Part shown: positions 4,701-48,551 of the stretch, in pieces
How positions within the stretch are numbered: the stretch's first letter is position 1
How the letters are laid out: each line of letters starts with the position of its first letter
Origin: Ignavibacteriae bacterium HGW-Ignavibacteriae-4
Lineage (GTDB): Bacteria; Bacteroidota; Ignavibacteria; Kapaibacteriales; UBA2268
NCBI GenBank assembly: GCA_002839765.1
Contig: PGYR01000017.1
Span: forward strand, 1 to 64,000
Direction: 5' to 3'
Length of the DNA stretch: 64,000 nt
Translations under genes and position numbers: made by a program
The notes under the pieces: model-generated
Told to the model about the DNA's origin: nothing
The model's input: only the letters and a program-made list of their open reading frames with translations
The model's database searches: none

Positions 4701-4981
4701 TGCTAACAACTGTTACCACGGTTCTAGGACTTTTCCCGTTATTACTAGAAACTAGTATCCAAGCTCAATTTTTGATTCCTATGGCTATATCAGTAGCTTA
4801 TGGCCTATTAGTAGCTTCAGTTTTCATATTGTTACTATTACCTGTATTACTTATATATTTGAGTAAAACACGTAATGCTGCATATTGGCTGAGAAACAAT
4901 GAATGGGCTGAGCCAGAAGCACTAGAACCTACAAATATAGAAGAAGTAATGATAAAAAAATACTTAACAGACGATGACTAA
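1796..4981 (+). CDS. RND family efflux permease (AcrB/MexB-like)
   Basis: 1061 aa; 'VIYPGASPEEIENGIIQKIEDNLKGVQGV', 'VVVGIVVDDGIVVGEQIFQNYE', 'IALIGIIVNDSIVFVNSFND' RND motifs. Confidence 0.97.
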   Translation: MKAFIRYFIKYPTWSNTILILVMLFGVLALLNMKSSFFPERESKNINISVIYPGASPEEIENGIIQKIEDNLKGVQGVDNYQSTSQENAGSITVEVLEEYDTDEVLIDVRNAVDRVNSFPSGMEPPVVSKRPAIEFTYSFAIFGDVDLATLKRTAQEVEDDLRDIPSISQVALSGFPASEINIALDEETMRRYQLTFPEVVAAVSTTNRDLSAGKIKTDNEELLIRYEGKNYYADDLQEVVVRTNRDGSFIRLQDIAKIEDRFAEDPQRSFVNGKPAVIISVSKIYGENALDIADAAKEYQENFNGKYPNIEAALIDDATESLRGRIKLLLENGTLGALLVVLSLALFLNWRLAFWVAMSLPFSFLGMFLMAYLFGITINVISLFGCIVVVGIVVDDGIVVGEQIFQNYEDGQKSYRAAIRGTLQVLPSVVFAVLTTVVAFLPFFFIDTPGPRISDMSFVVIFVLLFSLLEVIVILPTHLAHSKALKQDFVKSKIREKMDNLVNYPRNKMYKGVLRFSMKHRSVPIAISTFLLLITIGAFGGGIVKTTFFPSIDTDNFTIKIELPSGAREAQTMEVLNRVEKAIWAVGEDLKGTENSDENMVIRVVKNVAAMPSGWGQAEAGNANVGNIQVFLQSEEVRTIPALTIANMVREKVGTLTEVDKAEFGSSSFFGKPISIPLMGRDLSELQEAKKELKEALLAITELRDVTDNDPQGLREIQLHLKEKAYILGFTPLDITRQIRQGYFGEEVMRLQRGADEIKVWVRFTEDYRSSIDNFDNMRIKDIQGNSYPLTELVNYEIDRGSIKINHLDGMREITIEADTKDPKAQIPLIISEINENILAPILAKYSTVKTTASGQAKRIEKLSAGLIILPLAFILMFFLISLSFRSPLQALIVISLIPFGLMGAVWGHVIQGMSFNVMSFYGTIALIGIIVNDSIVFVNSFNDNLKEGQKFNDAIYNAGISRFRPILLTTVTTVLGLFPLLLETSIQAQFLIPMAISVAYGLLVASVFILLLLPVLLIYLSKTRNAAYWLRNNEWAEPEALEPTNIEEVMIKKYLTDDD

Positions 4982-6275
4982 AAATATAGCTTACATATTA
5001 TTATTACTCTTACCTTCGACGGTGTTATTTTCTCAAACGAATCTTTCGCTACAAGATGCTGTAGAGAGGACATTGCAGAATAATTATAATATACAGATGG
5101 TCAAAAAGGATTTGCAAATAACTGATAATAACATCAGCTATGGCAACGCAGGATTTTTACCATCACTTGATGCTGCTGCTAGTTATCGCTTCTCTGCAGA
5201 AGATGCTGAAACTAAGACAAGTCAAGGTACTTTCCCTGGGAATGACAACAGGGCAACTAACAAAAGTGCGTCTTTGTCTCTTGGTTGGACTTTGTTTGAT
5301 GGCTTTGCTATGTTTGCAAGATATGATAGATTCGAAGAGCTAAAAAACCTCAATTCTATTGCACTACAATTAGAGATAGAAACTAGATTACAAGAGTTAT
5401 TCAATACTTACTATCAGATAAATATGCTAGATAAAAGTATAGCTCTACTAGACGAAACTTTGAAATTCTCGCAAGAACGACTAAACTTCCTTAGCGCTTC
5501 GAATGAATATGGGGCTACAACAGGCACAGAAGTCCTCAGGGCGGAAGTAGACTACAACACGGACAATTCCAACTTAAAACGTCAGAAAGTGCAAAGAAAC
5601 GCCTCTATTAACCGATTAAAATATGTAATGGGTGAAATAAACGACGCGCAATACAATTTGACCTCTGATATCGAAATAGATGATCTGGGCGACTACACGA
5701 AGCTAAAAGAATTAGCTTTCGAGCGAAATAGCTCGATACAACAGGCAATGATAAATCGTGAAATCTCTGAGTATGATGAGAAGATAATAGAAGCAGCTTA
5801 CTATCCTAATGTAAAGTTCAATGCGGCATATAGCTACACAGAGCAAGAATCTGACAAAGGATTCATATTAGGAAGCAAGAACCAAGGATACAATGCTTCT
5901 ATTAGTGCTAGCTGGAACCTATTCAGCGGTTTCCAAACTAGAATAGCCGACCAAAACACGGAAATCCTACAAGAAAAACAAGACATATTCATCCAGAGTA
6001 TACGAGCTATGATTGAGATGAACATAATGACGAATTACCAATCTTACTCCGACCTGAAGGAGATATTGGAACTGGAAGTACAGAACCTAAAAACTGCGAA
6101 TGAGAATTTCGAACGTTCAAAAAGTATGTTCAAATACGGTACTATCAACTCGCTGGATCTCCGCCAATCACAAATCAATCTACTCGCAACCGAACAGCGA
6201 ATAGTCAACCTCAAATACGAAATCAAAACCTACGAGACTATGATACTGATGCTGAGCGGTCAGCTTGGGAGGTAA
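4974..6275 (+). CDS. TolC family outer membrane efflux protein
   Basis: Signal peptide, 'LSLQDAVERTLQNNYNIQMVKKDLQI', coiled-coil TolC pattern; overlaps the RND stop by 8 nt. Confidence 0.95.
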   Translation: MTKNIAYILLLLLPSTVLFSQTNLSLQDAVERTLQNNYNIQMVKKDLQITDNNISYGNAGFLPSLDAAASYRFSAEDAETKTSQGTFPGNDNRATNKSASLSLGWTLFDGFAMFARYDRFEELKNLNSIALQLEIETRLQELFNTYYQINMLDKSIALLDETLKFSQERLNFLSASNEYGATTGTEVLRAEVDYNTDNSNLKRQKVQRNASINRLKYVMGEINDAQYNLTSDIEIDDLGDYTKLKELAFERNSSIQQAMINREISEYDEKIIEAAYYPNVKFNAAYSYTEQESDKGFILGSKNQGYNASISASWNLFSGFQTRIADQNTEILQEKQDIFIQSIRAMIEMNIMTNYQSYSDLKEILELEVQNLKTANENFERSKSMFKYGTINSLDLRQSQINLLATEQRIVNLKYEIKTYETMILMLSGQLGR

Positions 6276-6301
6276 TTATCAATTATTACAACATAATTTA
6301 T
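6215..6301. repeat. 87-bp direct repeat, left copy (3' end of tolC-like gene plus downstream)
   Basis: Matches 6811-6897 with 2 mismatches (G/A at 6219, C/T in cag[c/t]ttgggagg). Confidence 0.97.
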
Positions 6302-6329
6302 TATATTGCGTTTAGCTAATTAATAGCAC

Positions 6330-6524
6330 TTGGAGAAAAGTATGATAACAAAAGAAAGTTTAATAAATCAATTAGATTTACTTCCCGATTCATTCACTAT
6401 TGATGAATTGATTGATCGACTTATCCTAATCGAAAAGATTGAAATAGGATTAAAGCAATCTGAAGCTGATGATGTTATCAGCGAAGAAGAGCTAAATGCT
6501 GAGATCGAGCAATGGTTCAAATAA
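6330..6524 (+). CDS. Putative antitoxin of RelE/ParE-type TA pair
   Basis: 64 aa; 'DSFTIDELIDRLILIEKIEIGLKQSEADDVISEEELNAEIEQWFK' typical of small antitoxins next to RelE; overlaps toxin start by 13 nt. ATG at 6342 (MITKES) is an alternative start. Confidence 0.85.
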   Translation: MEKSMITKESLINQLDLLPDSFTIDELIDRLILIEKIEIGLKQSEADDVISEEELNAEIEQWFK

Positions 6525-6811
6525 AATGGACTAGGCAGGCTAAGTTAGATATGAAAAATATTTTCGATTATATATCTAATGATTCTGTAAAATATGCTCA
6601 AAGACAAATAGAAGGAATCATAAAAAACACATCGTTTATCAAAAACAATACTAGAATAGGAAGAATTGTACCTGAGTTAAATAACCCCCAAATCCGTGAA
6701 ATAATAGTTAATAAGTACAGAGTTATATATTATTTAAAAGATGTTACTCGAGTGGATTTATTAACTATTCATCATAGTGCTAAAGAATTTCCAGACTTTT
6801 TAATTGAATAA
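6512..6811 (+). CDS. RelE/ParE family toxin
   Basis: 'KWTRQAKLDMKNIFDYISNDSVKYAQRQIEGII...RIGRIVPELNNPQIREIIVNKYRVIYYLKDVTRVDLLTIHHSAKEFP' is classic ParE/RelE. Confidence 0.93.
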   Translation: MVQIKWTRQAKLDMKNIFDYISNDSVKYAQRQIEGIIKNTSFIKNNTRIGRIVPELNNPQIREIIVNKYRVIYYLKDVTRVDLLTIHHSAKEFPDFLIE

Positions 6812-6897
6812 TACAAAATCAAAACCTACGAGACTATGATACTGATGCTGAGCGGTCAGTTTGGGAGGTAATTATCAATTATTACAACATAATTTAT
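6811..6897. repeat. 87-bp direct repeat, right copy
   Basis: Second copy of 6215-6301; begins at the last base of the toxin stop codon. Confidence 0.97.
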
Positions 6898-6993
6898 AAT
6901 CTACATGAAGAGAGAATGGCAAGAAAACTAACCAAATAACCTAGTCAATCATCTAATCAACTAGGTCTTAAATATTACAGTAATAAATATCGT

Positions 6994-8787
6994 TTATCTA
7001 TTTATGAAGAGTGATTGGTGATAATTCTTATCATCAGAAGTGATGATTATATTATAATATCCACTTATAAATTTTGATACGTCTATATCTATTCTATTTT
7101 GATTATTGAAATCTAAGCTCATCACCTCACTACCAAGTAAATCTAATACCCGAATACTTCCTTTTGACTTAGAATCACTAAACTCAATAGCTACGAAATC
7201 ACGAGCAGGATTAGGGTAAACCTTGAACTCATTTGTAATTTCAATAAAGGGGTTCACACTTGCAAAAATATCAAACGTTAGGGTAATAGGCCGTCTATAT
7301 AGAGTTAGAAGTGGTGCTATTTCATTAGTCACCGAACAAGTATAAATACCTTCAACTCCTTTTTGTGCGTCAGCGATTACCAAATCGTGATTAGTCTCAT
7401 TTGGTACTTCTTGTCCATCTTTAAACCACTTATACATATTGCCTTCCACATGCTCAGTTGCTGATGAAAGAGTGTACTCTTCACCTTCTTCTAGTATTAC
7501 TATTTCTTGTTCACCGAGCGAGTCTTGGGGTTCGTAAAGAAATCTTGACGTATTTACATTAGAAACTTGAAAATCGAAAAAATCAAATTTATTGCCATAC
7601 ACCCAAACTTTTTCCATTAGTTGAGGAGGAAAGTTATCTAAGCCTTCATTAATACTATTGTCCCCTATTGAAAACAAGTTAAGCTTCGTTAATTCTTGAA
7701 ATGAATCAGGAATGCTTCCTTCTAGTAAATTGTCTCTAAAATATAATGTCTCCAATAATTTTAAATTGCCCAATTCATCTGGGATAATTCCACTAAGCCT
7801 ATTTATTGATAGAATTAATTCACTTAATTTGGTAAGCTTGCCAAGCTCTACTGGAATGGTACCGCTTAATTGATTGTAGCCCAAATTTAAATACTCTAAA
7901 TCCTTTAGATTACCTAATTCAATAGGAATATTACCACTTAATTCATTCTCACTCAATTGTAGATGAATTAGGCTCTTAAGATTACCAATTTCAGTTGGAA
8001 TAGTGCCTGTGAGTTCATTGTCCAACAAATATAACCCTAAAAGATAAGGAAGATCACATATTTCTTTAGGTATTTCACCTATTAAATCATTCTCATCTAA
8101 ATTTAATATTCCAAGATGATTAAGGTTTCCAAACTCCTTAGGTATTGACCCAATTAGTCTATTATAACTTAAATCTAAATATTGTAATTTCTGTAAATTC
8201 CCAAGTTCCTTAGGTATAGATCCAGTTAATTGATTTCCTTTCAATCGTATTGTCTCTATCTTATTCAGACTCCCTAATTCGCTAGGTATATTTCCGTTTA
8301 GCTTATTGAATTCAAAGTTTATATATCTTAAGTCTACCATCTGATCTAGCCATATAGGTATGGTTCCAGAAAAATAATTCTGGTCTAACTTTATGTATTT
8401 TAAGCTAGAAAGTGTTTTAAGTTCGAAAGTGATATCTCCACTTAGACTATTCCTACCTAGATAAAGACCTTCAAGTTTAGTTAATTTATCTATTTCTTTC
8501 GGAATTTTCCCAACTAGATTATTTCCATCTAATTTAATCTCATTAACCCTTTTATTACCATCTAAATGTACTCCGTACCACGTACTTATAGATGAATCGC
8601 TTAACCAATTAGTATTCTTAATCCAATTGTCCCCTTCTGTAGAGTTATAAAGTGCAACCAGAGCAAGTGAGTCTTGCTCGATTGCAAGTTGTAGTGTATT
8701 GTTAGAGTCATCCTCTAGTTGAGTTGAGTAAAGGTAGCTACTACAAAGTATAGTTAATAATAAAGATTGGATAATTATTTTCATCAA
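6994..8787 (-). CDS. Secreted leucine-rich-repeat protein with T9SS type A sorting domain
   Basis: Many 'LxxLxLxxNxLxGxIPxELGNL' repeats; C-term 'VYPNPARDFVAIEFSDSKS...ISGYYNIIITSDDKNYHQSLFINR'. Confidence 0.93.
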   Translation of the reverse strand: MMKIIIQSLLLTILCSSYLYSTQLEDDSNNTLQLAIEQDSLALVALYNSTEGDNWIKNTNWLSDSSISTWYGVHLDGNKRVNEIKLDGNNLVGKIPKEIDKLTKLEGLYLGRNSLSGDITFELKTLSSLKYIKLDQNYFSGTIPIWLDQMVDLRYINFEFNKLNGNIPSELGSLNKIETIRLKGNQLTGSIPKELGNLQKLQYLDLSYNRLIGSIPKEFGNLNHLGILNLDENDLIGEIPKEICDLPYLLGLYLLDNELTGTIPTEIGNLKSLIHLQLSENELSGNIPIELGNLKDLEYLNLGYNQLSGTIPVELGKLTKLSELILSINRLSGIIPDELGNLKLLETLYFRDNLLEGSIPDSFQELTKLNLFSIGDNSINEGLDNFPPQLMEKVWVYGNKFDFFDFQVSNVNTSRFLYEPQDSLGEQEIVILEEGEEYTLSSATEHVEGNMYKWFKDGQEVPNETNHDLVIADAQKGVEGIYTCSVTNEIAPLLTLYRRPITLTFDIFASVNPFIEITNEFKVYPNPARDFVAIEFSDSKSKGSIRVLDLLGSEVMSLDFNNQNRIDIDVSKFISGYYNIIITSDDKNYHQSLFINR

Positions 8788-39247: not shown

Positions 39248-41386
39248 ATGAAAACAATATCTACTCTTTTCTTAGTAATCCTTTTAATTGCTAGCAATGC
39301 GTTTGCAGATGGGCAGAATGATTACCTAAGAGCAGCATATTCGGCATACTCAAGCAATGATTCTAATATTGTCCTAGCAGGAAGCTTCGAACAAGAAGGA
39401 TTATATAGAGCAACAAATCTTAATATAGCTACAGGTACCTCGGAGACTTTCCAACTAGATATAGATAACAATACCGAATTACTCGATGTACAGATGAACA
39501 CAAAAGCTAGACTAGTCTATTATTTCACTAATAAAAAAGTATCTATCTATGAATTTGGAGCAACGAAGTCATCACGTATAATAACAATAGATAATGACTC
39601 ACCTTATTTTGGAGTTTCGAATGATGGTACTAAAGTATATTCGTATAATAATAAACAAGATTACGTTTCTGTATTCGATGCTGTGAGTGGTGAGAGATTA
39701 GACAGATTTTTTGTCAATTCATTCGCTAATAACAATAAGCTGGGCTTTTTTAATTCTGATAAGGATGAATTTTACTTACAGAATGGTACCTCACTTTATG
39801 TATGGTCGATAGCTAATAAAATACAAGACAGGGAAATCTCGACACTCAAACCAAGTGCAAATTTCAAATTTATTGACAATGGCAATACACTAGCTTACAC
39901 AACTGGTGGCGAAGTAGTACTAGCCAATAGCTCCGACGGAGAAGTTACTTATAGAAAGCAATTCGAATACAAAGATATAGACAATATTCAATTTTCTGCA
40001 AATATGAATTATCTAGTAGTAAATAATTCTAATGCTTTTTCAGTTTTTGATATGGTAAATAAGAAAATCGTAAAAGACAATAATGCCCCCGATAATAATG
40101 ACAAAAATATACCTACGTACATGTATGTAAACAATGACAATAGCAAAATGGTTGCAAGGGACTATATCGACCTTTATTGCGGCAGAAACTTCGAAGATGC
40201 AATAGCAGATTATGTTTATTTTGTTTACGAAACAGCGACTAATAATATAATCGTATCAGCTCCTAATGGGCATATACCTAGACCCGAGAAAGCTATTATC
40301 AGCAAGGATAATAAGGTATTGTTGCTTACTGGTTATAATATAAATGATGGATCTATAAATGCAATCGTCGATGACCAAGAGAACTTTATTAAATATGTGA
40401 ATGTAGATGGTTATCCCGTGACTTTCCTAGAAGACAATAACAGAATTGCAATAATGGAAAAAGGAAAATTCAAAGTTTATAATACCGAATCTGAAGAGTT
40501 CGTACGGGAATTCGAAACTGGAATTGAAAGCTACAAAGATGTATATTACTTCGCTAACGGAACGGGTAGGTTAGTGATAACAGATGATTCGGAAATAGTC
40601 GTTTACGATTACTCGACTTTCGAGGTGTTATATACTTTCAACTATAGCGAGCTAGGACTAGAGCCAACGGAAATATCGTTCGACAATAATTCGACTATCA
40701 GTGTTTACTCATTAAAAAGATTACACAAATTCAACGCATATACAGGTGAAAAAAGCGATACACCAATCACGAATATGGACCCAACGAATAAGTTAGTTGA
40801 TGTAAGTATAAGCGGTAGATTTCTTCTATTCCGTACAACTGATAATGAGTTCATAGTATATGATAATACGTTCAAATTGGAAGTTTACAAAGAAAAACCA
40901 AGCTTTGTTGATAATTGGATGGTTTACCTTAGTGCTGGATTTTTCGGTAATCAAGAGATGATGTGGGTTAGATATGAATCAAATCCTGTTGATAGACTAA
41001 TATTAGTTTCTAAGTATGATTTCGTAACGAAGAAATCAGAAAAAATGTCAGGGGATAGAGAGCCAATAATCAGCAATGATGGCAGACTTTATTATTCACA
41101 TTATTGCCCTACTAAATACGAAATAGGTACTATTCGTGACCAACAAACCTTCGTCGAAACAGCTACTACCATAACCGGCTCAGTTTACCCCAACCCCGCG
41201 TCCGATTTCATAAAGCTAGATATGAATGCTACTACATTAAGCTCTGAAATTGAGATATACGACGCTTATGGTAAGCAGGTAATGAGCACTATATACACTG
41301 GCGAAGACATTGATATAAGCAAACTAACAGCTGGGGTTTACTTTGTGAAAATGGGTGATAAATCGATGAAGTTTATTAAATTATAA
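39248..41386 (+). CDS. T9SS-exported beta-propeller-like protein, tandem paralog A
   Basis: Signal peptide; repeated WD/YVTN-like blades; C-term 'TITGSVYPNPASDFIKLDMNATTL...GEDIDISKLTAGVYFVKMGDKSMKFIKL'. Confidence 0.85.
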   Translation: MKTISTLFLVILLIASNAFADGQNDYLRAAYSAYSSNDSNIVLAGSFEQEGLYRATNLNIATGTSETFQLDIDNNTELLDVQMNTKARLVYYFTNKKVSIYEFGATKSSRIITIDNDSPYFGVSNDGTKVYSYNNKQDYVSVFDAVSGERLDRFFVNSFANNNKLGFFNSDKDEFYLQNGTSLYVWSIANKIQDREISTLKPSANFKFIDNGNTLAYTTGGEVVLANSSDGEVTYRKQFEYKDIDNIQFSANMNYLVVNNSNAFSVFDMVNKKIVKDNNAPDNNDKNIPTYMYVNNDNSKMVARDYIDLYCGRNFEDAIADYVYFVYETATNNIIVSAPNGHIPRPEKAIISKDNKVLLLTGYNINDGSINAIVDDQENFIKYVNVDGYPVTFLEDNNRIAIMEKGKFKVYNTESEEFVREFETGIESYKDVYYFANGTGRLVITDDSEIVVYDYSTFEVLYTFNYSELGLEPTEISFDNNSTISVYSLKRLHKFNAYTGEKSDTPITNMDPTNKLVDVSISGRFLLFRTTDNEFIVYDNTFKLEVYKEKPSFVDNWMVYLSAGFFGNQEMMWVRYESNPVDRLILVSKYDFVTKKSEKMSGDREPIISNDGRLYYSHYCPTKYEIGTIRDQQTFVETATTITGSVYPNPASDFIKLDMNATTLSSEIEIYDAYGKQVMSTIYTGEDIDISKLTAGVYFVKMGDKSMKFIKL

Positions 41387-41390
41387 AAAA

Positions 41391-41454
41391 CTTTCACCTT
41401 TTGTGAGACGTTTTTGCTGTTCATGTGTCTTTATAAATATGAAAACAACACAAA
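41391..41454 (+). repeat. Upstream element shared (inverted orientation) with the 51.75-51.80 kb region
   Basis: Core TGAGACGTTTTTGC[T/G]GTTCATGTGTCTTTATA[A/T]ATAT[G/A]AAA also found on the minus strand upstream of the gene starting at 51736. Confidence 0.9.
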
Positions 41455-41473
41455 TCAAAATACATATTATTAG

Positions 41474-41536
41474 TTAACTGCCAGGGTGTACTACGTGAAG
41501 AAAAGTAGTATATCATGGAAGTTTATTGAATTTTAG
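41474..41536 (+). pseudogene. Relic of a T9SS C-terminal sorting domain
   Basis: Translation LTARVYYVKKSSISWKFIEF* aligns with LTAGVYFVKMGDKSMKFIKL* (paralog A) and the ends of B and C. Confidence 0.75.
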
Positions 41537-41572
41537 TGTATAGGATTGAAAAATTAAACAGCGAGGACAATT

Positions 41573-43792
41573 ATGAGATTAATTATTACAAATTTATTTA
41601 TTGCTATATTGCTAACGACTTCCCTTGTAGCGCAGGAATCAATGGAGTATTTCCAAGCGGAGTTTTCATCAAACCCTAAAGACGACAAAAATATAGTTGT
41701 AACGGGCAGAATAGGATACGGTGGTGATTTTAAAGCAATACTGTTTGATATTGAGAATGACAATCATGAGGTTTTTGATATTGATATCCCTAAGGGCATA
41801 TATATTAGGAGCATAGAAATAAATGCTGAATCAAATAGGATTGCTTACTACACTTCAGATTCTATCGTAATATTTAATTATCTTACCTTTGAAAAAGAAC
41901 AAACGTTTGAGTTAGATACTAATATAAAGAAGAGCAGTTTTTCAAAAGATGGAAACAAATACTTCTTCTATAATTCCACAGAAAATCAAGTTCTGGTTTA
42001 TAATATTGATGATGCACAACTGGTTGCTATCCATGACCTTGAACCAATAAATGATGGTTATAGATTTACATCATACAATCAATTTACAGATGAAGTAGCA
42101 TTTAGAAAGGATAGTACTCTAATTATTTGGTCACTAAATAGCCACAATGTCACTAATACTATTCCGTTCAAAGAGGAATATGGATTCCATTCATTTGAAG
42201 AAAATGGTAATATGTTTAGCTTTTATTATGATATCGAAAAAGAGGGACAAAGTTACAGAGAAAATGTAATTGGTGTTGCTAACACAGCAGACGGAAGTAT
42301 AAAATATAAAACTGAAATTGGGTATTCTAAACCAAATAATATTGAATTCACTTCAGATATGAGATATTTACTAGAATATTATGAATTAAGGTTTCAAGAA
42401 ATATATGATTTAGAAGAAGACACTCGAGTTGATAATATGTTAAGTGTAGGACAATATGGAAGAATTAATTATTTATATATTTCACCCGATTTAGAATATT
42501 CTATTATACTAGAAGCAGGTACACAAAGTTGTGGTATAAACTGGGGGGACAGCCAAAGGTACAGAGAACGAATTTCTACATTTAACTTTAAAGAAAAATC
42601 ACAAATTAAGCATCTTATCAATAAATTTATTGAAATGCCAATAAGAGCAGTAATAAGCGAAGATAATAATTATGCAGTAATTAATTCAACGCGGGGTAGA
42701 CATGAAAATATATTAGTCACTATAGATGAAAAATTAGTAAAGTATCTTAAAGTTACTGATGCTGCTCCAGTCCTATTCATAGACAAATCCAAATTTATTG
42801 GTTTTCGATATTATGAGAGAATTAAATTTTATAATGTTGAAACTGATGAGTTTGATAAAGAGTTTGATACGGGTCTAAACTCAATATCTAAGTATTACTA
42901 TACCAAAAATGGTGATGGTCGAATTATAGTAATGAATAATGACACTATAAATATATTCAACTATTCTGACTTAAGTTTAAATAAAACTATTGTAGTGAGT
43001 GAATCTGGGATTGGTAGTAATATTAGGTTTGATGGAAAGGAAAATCTAATCGGCTATGACGGAGATAAGATCAATAAATATAATATATTTGATGAATCGA
43101 TTACATCAGATGTAATAGATAATATACCTGATGGTTTTATATTTAAAAGATTCTCGCCAAATGGAAGATATGTACTCTTTGGGAAATACGATGGATATAA
43201 AAATATTAATTATGAAGTTGGAATTTATGATATGCAAACAGATATATTTAGAACAAAGGACTTAGCTAGTGATTCACTTAATGAAAACTCTCCAGAATTT
43301 ACTTTTGGTCTTGTAGGCAACCTCCCAATAGTTTGGTATTTTTACCATTATGCTAAATTTAAAGGTGGTCATAGCCTCTATTATACATATTCTTCTTATG
43401 ATTTTGATAAAGAATCTATCTCAGAATATGACTTTAATGACCCAGAATATTTTGAAAATGGCGATAGATCTTATCTAAGCAACGATTATAATTATTATAT
43501 TAAACTAAATTGTCCTTGGTCATATAGCATTACTCAACTAGTTGACCCACAATCCTCTGTAGAAACAGTTACTACCATAACCGGCTCAGTTTACCCCAAC
43601 CCAGCATCCGATTTCATTAAGTTGGATTTGAATGCTAGTTCAATGAACTCAAGCATTCAGATATTCGATGCTTATGGTAAGCAAGTGATGAGCGTTATCT
43701 ACAGTGGCGAAGACATTGATATAAGCAAGCTGACAGCTGGGGTTTACTTTGTGAAAACTGGCAATGGAACTCACAAATTTGTGAAGATGTAA
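41573..43792 (+). CDS. T9SS-exported beta-propeller-like protein, tandem paralog B
   Basis: Same architecture as A; C-term 'PQSSVETVTTITGSVYPNPASDFIKLDLNASSM...GEDIDISKLTAGVYFVKTGNGTHKFVKM'. Confidence 0.85.
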   Translation: MRLIITNLFIAILLTTSLVAQESMEYFQAEFSSNPKDDKNIVVTGRIGYGGDFKAILFDIENDNHEVFDIDIPKGIYIRSIEINAESNRIAYYTSDSIVIFNYLTFEKEQTFELDTNIKKSSFSKDGNKYFFYNSTENQVLVYNIDDAQLVAIHDLEPINDGYRFTSYNQFTDEVAFRKDSTLIIWSLNSHNVTNTIPFKEEYGFHSFEENGNMFSFYYDIEKEGQSYRENVIGVANTADGSIKYKTEIGYSKPNNIEFTSDMRYLLEYYELRFQEIYDLEEDTRVDNMLSVGQYGRINYLYISPDLEYSIILEAGTQSCGINWGDSQRYRERISTFNFKEKSQIKHLINKFIEMPIRAVISEDNNYAVINSTRGRHENILVTIDEKLVKYLKVTDAAPVLFIDKSKFIGFRYYERIKFYNVETDEFDKEFDTGLNSISKYYYTKNGDGRIIVMNNDTINIFNYSDLSLNKTIVVSESGIGSNIRFDGKENLIGYDGDKINKYNIFDESITSDVIDNIPDGFIFKRFSPNGRYVLFGKYDGYKNINYEVGIYDMQTDIFRTKDLASDSLNENSPEFTFGLVGNLPIVWYFYHYAKFKGGHSLYYTYSSYDFDKESISEYDFNDPEYFENGDRSYLSNDYNYYIKLNCPWSYSITQLVDPQSSVETVTTITGSVYPNPASDFIKLDLNASSMNSSIQIFDAYGKQVMSVIYSGEDIDISKLTAGVYFVKTGNGTHKFVKM

Positions 43793-43811
43793 GTAAAAAA
43801 CAGGAAATAAA

Positions 43812-45977
43812 ATGACTAGAATATTACTAATAATTATAGCAGCTACTATAGCGTTTAGCAACTCGCTTTCTGCTAGCAATGAAATAATGTCAGCAGATTT
43901 TATTTTTAATCTTGGCAATGATAAGGACTTTGTTCTAGTTGGTAGTGAAGGTTACCGGGATAGATTGGTTGTAAGTGAGGTAAATATTGAATCCAATGAT
44001 ATAGAATACTTTGTTCTAGATAAATATTATAATGATCCTGAGTTTGTTACTATAAGTAAAGAGAATAAGAAACTTGCACTTAAAAATTCACGATCTAATG
44101 GAATCTACATATATAACTATGGAACTTCTGAATTGATTTCTACTCTGATTTTGGATTCTGTTTATAGTAATTTTGCGTTCTCAAAAAATGGAGATTATCT
44201 ATATACAGTTAGTCCGAGTGATAATTTCTTTAAAAGTTATGACGTTGTAACTGGTGAAGTCACAAAGGAGTTTGACCTTATAGGCGCTTTAAAACAAAAG
44301 TACTTCTACATTGACACTGAAAACGAAGAAATAACTGTCTATAATGGTAGTGCCTATGATATTTGGTCTATTACAGAAGAGAAGATAGTAAGAACAGGTA
44401 ACGGATACATCCCATTTATTCTTGATAAACTCCTCAGTGATGGTGCTTTGAAAGCATATATGAAAAATGGAATATTCTATATTGATAGTACATCAAACGG
44501 TACTAATATAATTACTAAGAAATTCTTTGAAAATAATGACTATTTAAGTGACTTCTTTTATTGTAATTATTGCAAATTAGACGTTACTTCAGATATGAAA
44601 TATATGCTTTTAAACTATAGCGAAAGAGAACAAATAATATACGATATTGTCAACGATTCAATTATCGAATTAGTCCCAATAATTATCGATGGATATGAAG
44701 AACGTCCACCTTATGTACATGCTATAAATTCCGACTTTTCTAAATCAATTGTTAGTTATAATCGCTCCAGATATTGTGGTAGATATTTAGAAATGCCGAT
44801 GCCCTGGCATAAATTCTATATATATGATAATGTAAAGTCTGGCAATATTACCTCAATTCCTGAGGGATATATAGACTCTGACAATAAAAGTACACCTATC
44901 ATAGGTGACAATCTAGAAAAAGTAATAATACATAACCAAGATACAAAAGTCTTAATCGATAAGGATGAGAAATTTTTAAGATATATTGATATAGATGAAA
45001 CTCCAGTAGTGTTATATGATAACTCAACTATGTTAGGCGTATTAGACTCTGGATTATTTAGAACATATAACCTAGTAACTGACAAATATGAAAAGGAATT
45101 TAAAGTTGATATTGAGAATATAATAAAAGTCTATTTACCTCAAGAGCAGGACATAATATTATTTCAGGATTCGAATAAGGTCTATGTTTATGATTTCAAG
45201 ACCTTCGCTCAGCTAAGAGAATTTGATTTCAGGGCATTAGATATTAAACTTAAATTGATAAAGTTTGATGGTAACAAGTATATAGTAGCCTGTGATACCA
45301 GTTCAATATATAAGTATAATATCTACACTAATGAAATATCCGTATATGATGAAAATGAAACGTTTGCAGATTATCAATACAAGGATTTCTCAACGGATGG
45401 AGAACATTTATTATATTTCAAGTACCCGAATAGTATATTGAAACATAATTTAAAGACTAGTAAAATTACTGAGGATACACTGTTAGGACAGTCTTTTGAG
45501 TATGGAAGAGATTTGACAGGAATAGGGTTTTTAGGTAATCATGAGCTGGTTTGGTATATTTATCTTTATGATCCAACTCAGAGAGGATATTACATATCAA
45601 ATATTTATGACTTTATTACTAAAACAGAAACTACTATGGCAGGGGAATTCAAGCCAATCATAAGTGATAATGGTAAAATGTATATAGGGCGTTACTGTCC
45701 AGATGATTATTTCTTCAGAGCTATCCGCGACCCACAATCCTCTGTAGAAACAGTTACTACCATAACAGGCTCCGTTTACCCCAACCCAGCAACGGATTTC
45801 ATCAAGCTAGAATTGAATGCATCAACTTTAAACTCTCAGGTTCAAATATTCGATGCCTTCGGTAAGCAGGTAATGAGCATTATATACACTGGCGAAGACA
45901 TTGACATTAGCAAGCTGACAGCTGGGGTTTACTTTGTAAAAACCCCGAGCCATAGCTACAAGTTTATAAAGCTGTAA
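43812..45977 (+). CDS. T9SS-exported beta-propeller-like protein, tandem paralog C
   Basis: Same architecture; C-term 'DPQSSVETVTTITGSVYPNPATDFIKLELNASTL...GEDIDISKLTAGVYFVKTPSHSYKFIKL'. Confidence 0.85.
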   Translation: MTRILLIIIAATIAFSNSLSASNEIMSADFIFNLGNDKDFVLVGSEGYRDRLVVSEVNIESNDIEYFVLDKYYNDPEFVTISKENKKLALKNSRSNGIYIYNYGTSELISTLILDSVYSNFAFSKNGDYLYTVSPSDNFFKSYDVVTGEVTKEFDLIGALKQKYFYIDTENEEITVYNGSAYDIWSITEEKIVRTGNGYIPFILDKLLSDGALKAYMKNGIFYIDSTSNGTNIITKKFFENNDYLSDFFYCNYCKLDVTSDMKYMLLNYSEREQIIYDIVNDSIIELVPIIIDGYEERPPYVHAINSDFSKSIVSYNRSRYCGRYLEMPMPWHKFYIYDNVKSGNITSIPEGYIDSDNKSTPIIGDNLEKVIIHNQDTKVLIDKDEKFLRYIDIDETPVVLYDNSTMLGVLDSGLFRTYNLVTDKYEKEFKVDIENIIKVYLPQEQDIILFQDSNKVYVYDFKTFAQLREFDFRALDIKLKLIKFDGNKYIVACDTSSIYKYNIYTNEISVYDENETFADYQYKDFSTDGEHLLYFKYPNSILKHNLKTSKITEDTLLGQSFEYGRDLTGIGFLGNHELVWYIYLYDPTQRGYYISNIYDFITKTETTMAGEFKPIISDNGKMYIGRYCPDDYFFRAIRDPQSSVETVTTITGSVYPNPATDFIKLELNASTLNSQVQIFDAFGKQVMSIIYTGEDIDISKLTAGVYFVKTPSHSYKFIKL

Positions 45978-48046: not shown

Positions 48047-48331
48047 TCAAGAATAATTTTGATATTTTACGAAACCAAATACATCAATAGTATTTCTATT
48101 AATATTTATTTTATAGATAATAGAATAACCTTTGAAGATTAAATCTCTTATATTATCATCATCAAAATAGATTGACTTTCTTCCCATATATGGATTATTT
48201 TCAACTAACCTGATTTTTTCAATAAGTTCTCTATTAAAACTTTGTGCTCTTGAAACGGAATCAATTGATATGTATTTGACCTGTTTAGAAAGACTATTTG
48301 TGAAGGCTGACTTAAATCTAATTTTCATCAT
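48047..48331 (-). CDS. RelE/ParE-like toxin
   Basis: 'MMKIRFKSAFTNSLSKQVKYISIDSVSRAQSFNRELIEKIRLVENNPYMGRKSIYFDDDNIRDLIFKGYSIIYKININRNTIDVFGFVKYQN'. The ORF track extends further upstream (48460), but MMKIRFK overlapping the antitoxin stop is the better start. Confidence 0.85.
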   Translation of the reverse strand: MMKIRFKSAFTNSLSKQVKYISIDSVSRAQSFNRELIEKIRLVENNPYMGRKSIYFDDDNIRDLIFKGYSIIYKININRNTIDVFGFVKYQNYS

Positions 48332-48551
48332 TATTAATAGATTTTGTAAGAATCTCTTCAAATTCTTCAAGAGTATGGAAAGTTGCATTGCCTTCTTCCA
48401 TTTCATCCAACTCTTTTTGTAAATACGCCTTATTGCGTTTGAATTCGCTTTCATCTTCAATAATTAACATATCATTTTTGTCATAATCATTCATTTGACT
48501 AATAAACTTATTATAAGCATTGTCACTTACTTTTATAGTTATAGTATGCAT
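48318..48551 (-). CDS. Putative antitoxin partner of 48047-48331
   Basis: Small acidic ORF directly upstream and overlapping the toxin start; 'MHTITIKVSDNAYNKFISQMNDYDKNDMLIIEDESEFKRNKAYLQKELDEMEEG'. Confidence 0.8.
   Translation of the reverse strand: MHTITIKVSDNAYNKFISQMNDYDKNDMLIIEDESEFKRNKAYLQKELDEMEEGNATFHTLEEFEEILTKSINNDEN

Follow-up and report, generated by a model that had tools for sequence, protein, structure and literature searches.

A toxin–antitoxin module between two copies of the tolC gene end, and comparable structures at housekeeping gene ends in related genomes

Integrase-mediated elements that enter the end of a gene restore the 3′ end of their target, and the displaced 3′ fragment is found at the far end of the element. 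A review (PMC2654758) notes growing evidence that chromosomal toxin–antitoxin modules move horizontally, but states that their fixation has yet to be explained. Two papers (PMC3874152; PMC3031569) report that restriction-modification systems have inserted with target duplications of variable length, about 100 bp, and cite Nobusato et al. (2000) and Furuta et al. (2010) for this long target duplication. In Neisseria, cassettes known as minimal mobile elements (Saunders and Snyder 2002) rely on homologous recombination in conserved genes for their movement (PMC3082526). In the open-access literature, we found no papers on toxin–antitoxin modules flanked by duplicated host gene ends.

The locus described here lies in a 64-kb stretch of DNA (the window), where tolC (4974–6275, forward strand) is an intact host gene for an outer membrane efflux protein of 433 amino acids (Pfam OEP, E = 2.3e-45). 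A self-comparison of the whole window identified one pair of direct repeats at the end of this gene (6214–6304 and 6810–6900, both forward), each 91 bp long, 596 bp apart and 96.7% identical, with three differences (E about 2e-28). The left copy takes in the final 62 bp of tolC, stop codon included, and 29 bp of downstream sequence. The right copy, a duplicate tolC 3′ end and probably the displaced native one, begins within the stop codon of the toxin gene (TAA, 6809–6811). A first-pass annotation of this DNA had described the repeats as 87 bp long with two differences, 596 bp apart, the left one supplying the end of tolC and the right one starting at the toxin stop codon without upstream tolC. 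These particulars held: the 87 bp differ at exactly two positions (6219 G/A and 6264 C/T), and the third difference falls at the 3′ edge. The annotation had also named a longer tolC fragment at the right copy as a possible sign of ordinary tandem duplication of the gene, and no tolC sequence lies upstream of that copy in the window. Both coding differences between the copies are non-synonymous. The tolC-end pair is the only one of its kind within the 64 kb, and the remaining nearby repeats fall inside or between paralogous or repetitive protein genes. Three tandem paralogous genes at 39248–45977 encode products of 712–739 amino acids with YPNPA-type, C-terminal sorting-domain-like ends, and the last roughly 255 bp of these genes are about 81% identical.

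The module body between the copies (6305–6809, forward, about 505 bp) comprises an upstream region and two small ORFs; as the annotation had stated, it contains no integrase or transposase. The second ORF (6512–6811, forward) encodes a predicted toxin of the ParE/RelE superfamily, 99 amino acids long and above the cut-off for both ParE_toxin (PF05016, E = 1e-13) and RelE_StbE (TIGR02385, E = 7e-9). The ORF before it (6342–6524, forward) encodes 60 amino acids and overlaps the toxin start by 13 bp; such a placement is usual for the two genes of a type II pair and suggests an antitoxin. The pair resembles type II parDE and relBE modules in that a short ORF precedes and overlaps a ParE/RelE toxin gene, but it differs from them in that the putative antitoxin matched no family in Pfam, NCBIfam or PADLOC. 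Searches with the toxin found no relatives in viral contigs, only distant RelE/ParE toxins below 36% identity in plasmid records, and no sequence match among solved structures. A second ParE-like toxin is encoded at 48047–48460 (reverse strand) in the window, with its PF05016 match at 48077–48322.

Each of the described systems shares some features with this locus. As in the long target duplications of restriction-modification systems, there is an addiction-type gene pair, an empty site in relatives and no recombinase, and their repeats of about 100 bp are close to the window's 91 bp at 97% identity. To that extent the mobilisation is not as uncharacterised as first proposed. The cargo here, however, is a ParE/RelE-type pair rather than a restriction-modification system, and several of the targets described below are housekeeping genes that stay intact and are used at their 3′ ends. 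In addition, arrays occur, and some of the end copies are not duplicates of the local target but foreign or mosaic. Minimal mobile elements are likewise small cassettes without enzymes of their own, and their movement by homologous recombination is what we propose here; they sit between two conserved flanking genes, whereas the present arrangement uses a single gene end, a second copy of which remains beyond the cassette. Integron cassettes with toxin–antitoxin cargo are also small modules separated by direct repeats in arrays. Here, by contrast, each locus has its own repeat, which derives from the coding end of a housekeeping gene, and the module carries no integron integrase. The window's repeat does not appear to be an attC site: it belongs to the coding end of tolC, which congeners have only once, as an ordinary gene end. 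The intact target gene and the displaced 3′ fragment at the far end recall integrase elements, yet a cargo of about 505 bp without an integrase does not.

We compared the tolC site across a congeneric set of four genomes, the window genome (G000, 3.36 Mb) and G001, G002 and G003; the near GTDB relatives are metagenome-assembled genomes. The tolC orthologues in the latter three are 84–88% identical in amino acid sequence. The site is occupied in G000 and G001 and empty in G002 and G003, which have neither the module nor a second end copy. The empty sites that the annotation had proposed to look for in close relatives are therefore present, and it is not the case that all relatives carry both repeats. 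In G001, an orthologous module follows tolC at the same place (nucleotide identities of 81% for the toxin, 77.5% for the antitoxin and 82.5% for tolC), which fits shared descent of the two modules. No relic of the right copy was detected in the 114 bp that could be searched before the G001 contig ends (p = 0.59).

The sequence beyond the right copy indicates which copy is native. Positions 6898–7010 align with the region downstream of tolC at the empty G002 site (z = 4.6, p = 0.002, dinucleotide shuffles), and the alignment conserves a terminator-like stretch (6930–6972, forward; CCTAGTCAAT...AACTAGGTCTT). The sequence after the left copy shows no match to the G002 tolC downstream region (p = 0.20). 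Because only the former matches the empty site, the right copy and its downstream sequence are probably the original tolC end, and the insertion looks like the module plus the left copy. The regions downstream of tolC in G003 and G001 did not match the sequence after the right copy. At the protein level, the genes downstream of tolC have a tblastx match in G002 and a weaker one in G003, with differing content after tolC. The earlier view of a unit inserted at, or duplicated from, an intact tolC is partly supported by the empty sites and the native downstream sequence. This is not a clean, recent, single insertion, since no right copy was detected beside the orthologous module of G001; for the same reason, the module may have been present in this lineage before the repeat arose. 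Both window copies share bases that are absent from the congeners, so the duplication in this lineage is of recent date, was derived from a close relative, or has undergone homogenisation.

These shared lineage-specific bases and the near identity of the copies would also suit a local tandem duplication of the 596-bp unit of tolC end plus module, after which the second module was lost and a spare tolC end was left. The module would then be older than the repeat, as expected if G001 represents the ancestral state. To account for the G002-like native sequence after the right copy, however, a second deletion would have to end exactly at the left border of the module, and the foreign gene ends found elsewhere (below) would go unexplained. 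We consider this history quite improbable.

To see how often such structures recur, we gathered ParE-like loci across the same class, fetching 100 stretches and applying identical criteria to loci and controls. Long direct repeats (69–240 bp) straddled nineteen of 102 ParE-like loci; for positions drawn at random within these loci the figure was 113 of 12,454 (0.9%; p about 1e-19). Repeats straddled none of thirty cold-shock-gene control loci and five of twenty-six DUF2283 loci. In a stricter control, small ORFs at a distance from the module in the ParE-like loci were straddled in twelve of 185 cases, so that the odds were only 3.3-fold lower than for the modules (p = 0.0025). Judged by eye, genes resembling MazE, MazF, DUF5615 and BrnT account for four of these twelve ORFs, and integron-like or RAYT/REP contexts for most of the others. 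The repeats were unique local sequences in nine of the 102 loci (p = 5e-7), namely the window, L090, L092, L096, L103, L108, L109, L117 and L147. Loci that looked by eye like integron-like arrays (L080, L143, L149, L159) or contained dispersed, REP-like or palindromic repeats (L075, L077, L099, L107, L113, L142) were set apart from the gene-end cases. The annotation had proposed a search for other modules of this genome flanked by the ends of neighbouring genes. Such modules were found in related genomes instead; the fetched loci of the three other ParE-like genes in the window genome (C5, C27 and window 48077–48322) had no flanking direct repeats.

Where the repeats are coding, they correspond to the 3′ end of the adjacent gene. 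For ParE-like loci these genes encode fructose-bisphosphatase (L147), pyruvate kinase (L096) and seryl-tRNA synthetase (L117), and for DUF2283 modules seryl-tRNA synthetase (L242), lipoyl E2 acyltransferase (L322), an OmpA-like protein (L338) and adenylosuccinate lyase (L337). The orthologous pyk site was empty in all thirteen relatives checked, two of them congeneric, and the serS site was empty in ten of twelve genomes. A search for empty sites was uninformative at L108, because the NHL-repeat protein encoded by its host gene has many paralogues. In G237, the repeats that follow fbp looked unrelated to a module and were dropped. Just beyond the distal lipoyl-E2 copy of L322 (G094:C16, 698–1276) lies an ORF with a weak, sub-cut-off match to an IS200-like transposase.

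In contrast to the window, the copies in these other genomes are only 73–90% identical. Their differences are concentrated at third codon positions (31, 16 and 83 at first, second and third positions, pooled over six pairs; p = 2e-12), so each copy was under selection as part of a functional gene, and separate genomes are the simplest setting for this. Such a bias would not be expected from duplication in place followed by decay. Nor could assembly create copies this divergent, which bears on the idea that the window's arrangement is an artefact of two strains collapsed in a metagenome-assembled genome. The congener records are of that kind, and the window genome is in 110 contigs with 3.4% contamination, but the junction of module and right copy is unique sequence and three sites distinguish the repeats. 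We regard an artefact as extremely improbable.

The clearest indication of where a second copy came from is the serS locus of G275, in which the distal gene end sits after a DUF4258-like/DUF2283 pair. The first 102 bp of this end are 90% identical to serS of G219, a member of another genus, versus 72% to G275's own serS, while the last 45 bp are 91% identical to its own. Informative sites divide 24:5 (G219-like to own-like) up to position 102 and 1:5 thereafter (Fisher p = 0.004, with the cut chosen post hoc). This mosaic fits the footprint of one crossover between a circle carrying the module with a donor gene end and the resident gene end. A single crossover of this type would leave the resident 5′ part in the proximal copy and would give the distal copy the donor 5′ part followed by the resident 3′ part. 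The mosaic copy supports entry by homologous recombination at serS, and a mosaic is clear at this one locus only. The distal pyk end of G390 is 72% identical to its own pyk and 73% to the congeners, and neither this copy nor the third copy in G219 points to a particular donor. None of the nearest DUF4258-like relatives of the G275 module lies next to serS, so the donor locus was not found among them.

The mosaic also bears on a rival that agrees with the restriction-modification reports (PMC3874152, PMC3031569): insertion with a long target duplication through illegitimate or homology-facilitated joining. Here, a donor tolC end with its module would recombine homologously within tolC, and the far end would join at a microhomology lying upstream of the recipient's own tolC end, duplicating 87–91 bp. 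The motif AATAC does occur at both left borders of the window repeats (6214 and 6810), the native status of the right copy is as this reading predicts, and the 3% difference between the copies would equal the divergence between strains. It nevertheless places the donor end proximally and the native end distally, and the distal end in G275 is foreign in its 5′ part; arrays with several copies of one gene end are also unexplained. For these reasons insertion by long target duplication seems unlikely, if still worth consideration for the window.

On balance, we think it somewhat probable that small addiction modules of this kind carry a copy of the end of their target gene and enter by host homologous recombination at that copy, with no integrase of their own. 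In the window, the chromosome reads tolC, end copy, module, end copy and native downstream sequence. DNA carrying the module and one end copy, most simply a circle popped out of such a locus in another cell, would enter and cross over within the homologous gene end. The target gene would remain intact because the incoming copy is its own tail. The arrangement of end copy, module and end copy would be regenerated, and therefore the cycle could be repeated without an encoded integrase. An intramolecular crossover between the end copies would remove the module again and leave an empty site. If cells without the module die, such addiction could account for the persistence of so unstable an arrangement around toxin–antitoxin modules. 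We infer the circular intermediate, the dependence on RecA and the addiction or killing. The window's own insertion presumably followed the same route. Its copies are too similar for a donor to be read from them; given this similarity, too close to reveal a foreign donor, and the non-synonymous coding differences, a local duplication is conceivable at the window.

More than one module can occupy a given gene end. In G169, four purB (adenylosuccinate lyase) ends alternate with three modules, one of them a PIN-toxin pair, one a small module and one of the DUF2283 type; three OmpA-like ends occur in G157; and three serS ends surround a DUF559 nuclease-like ORF and a ParE module in G219. The nuclease-like ORF (L340, G219:C34, 5946–6356) is itself cargo between two of the seryl-tRNA synthetase end copies. 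In intronless homing, a nuclease stimulates recombination, and by analogy this one could stimulate recombination at the gene end.

Arrays of this sort resemble cassette arrays, and together with the attL/attR-like restoration of the gene end they raise the question of a recombinase acting in trans that uses gene 3′ ends as attachment sites, in the fashion of an integron or a gene-end integrase. The integron-like repeats seen by eye around some ParE modules of the same class (the four loci set apart above) would agree with this. By eye, though, we noticed no sequence common to the tolC, fbp, pyk, serS, purB, ompA-like and E2 ends, the module carries no recombinase, and the duplicated stretch is long and variable (40–160 bp). 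The annotation's comparison with attL and attR therefore stands as a description of the geometry; nothing indicates a site-specific recombinase, and the G275 mosaic better fits host recombination, with a crossover within a longer homologous stretch. We consider site-specific recombination very unlikely. Recombination at a carried gene end remains the favoured reading: it would leave the host gene intact, regenerate the repeats and need no recombinase in the module, and it accounts for the locus-specific sequence, the foreign distal copies and the arrays.

Taken from sequence comparison, these patterns suggest units that spread by borrowing host gene ends and host recombination, without carrying an integrase. 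As far as the open-access literature shows, the toxin–antitoxin cargo, the use of housekeeping gene 3′ ends, the foreign mosaic ends and the arrays are new. More tentatively, they may represent a general class of recombinase-free elements in which a housekeeping 3′ end serves as a portable attachment segment and host recombination as the integrase, with the order of gene end, module and gene end regenerated at each entry and arrays of different modules built up at one gene end. Conservation of the gene end would let such elements pass from one genus to another. A case could be made, with similar reserve, that module-plus-gene-end elements deserve a class of their own. The gene-end copies would then be a readable footprint of module entry, in which a foreign end records the donor and the cycle needs no enzyme of the module's own. 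This route would explain modules that sit beside conserved genes without mobile elements, and a small module next to a duplicated end of its neighbouring gene offers a signature for genome scans.

Direct repeats also accompany modules of other types. A MazE/MazF-like pair from the non-ParE control (L158, G174:C6, reverse orientation, 5130–6138) is straddled by 115-bp direct repeats that are 88% identical, and a HicB-like gene (L343, G358:C91, 402–1260) lies between imperfect direct repeats of about 200 bp. Last, an array-like series of small modules (L344, G315:C32, 596–2675), which includes a PIN-like pair, a DUF4258-like gene and others, is divided by three copies of a repeat of 95–130 bp.
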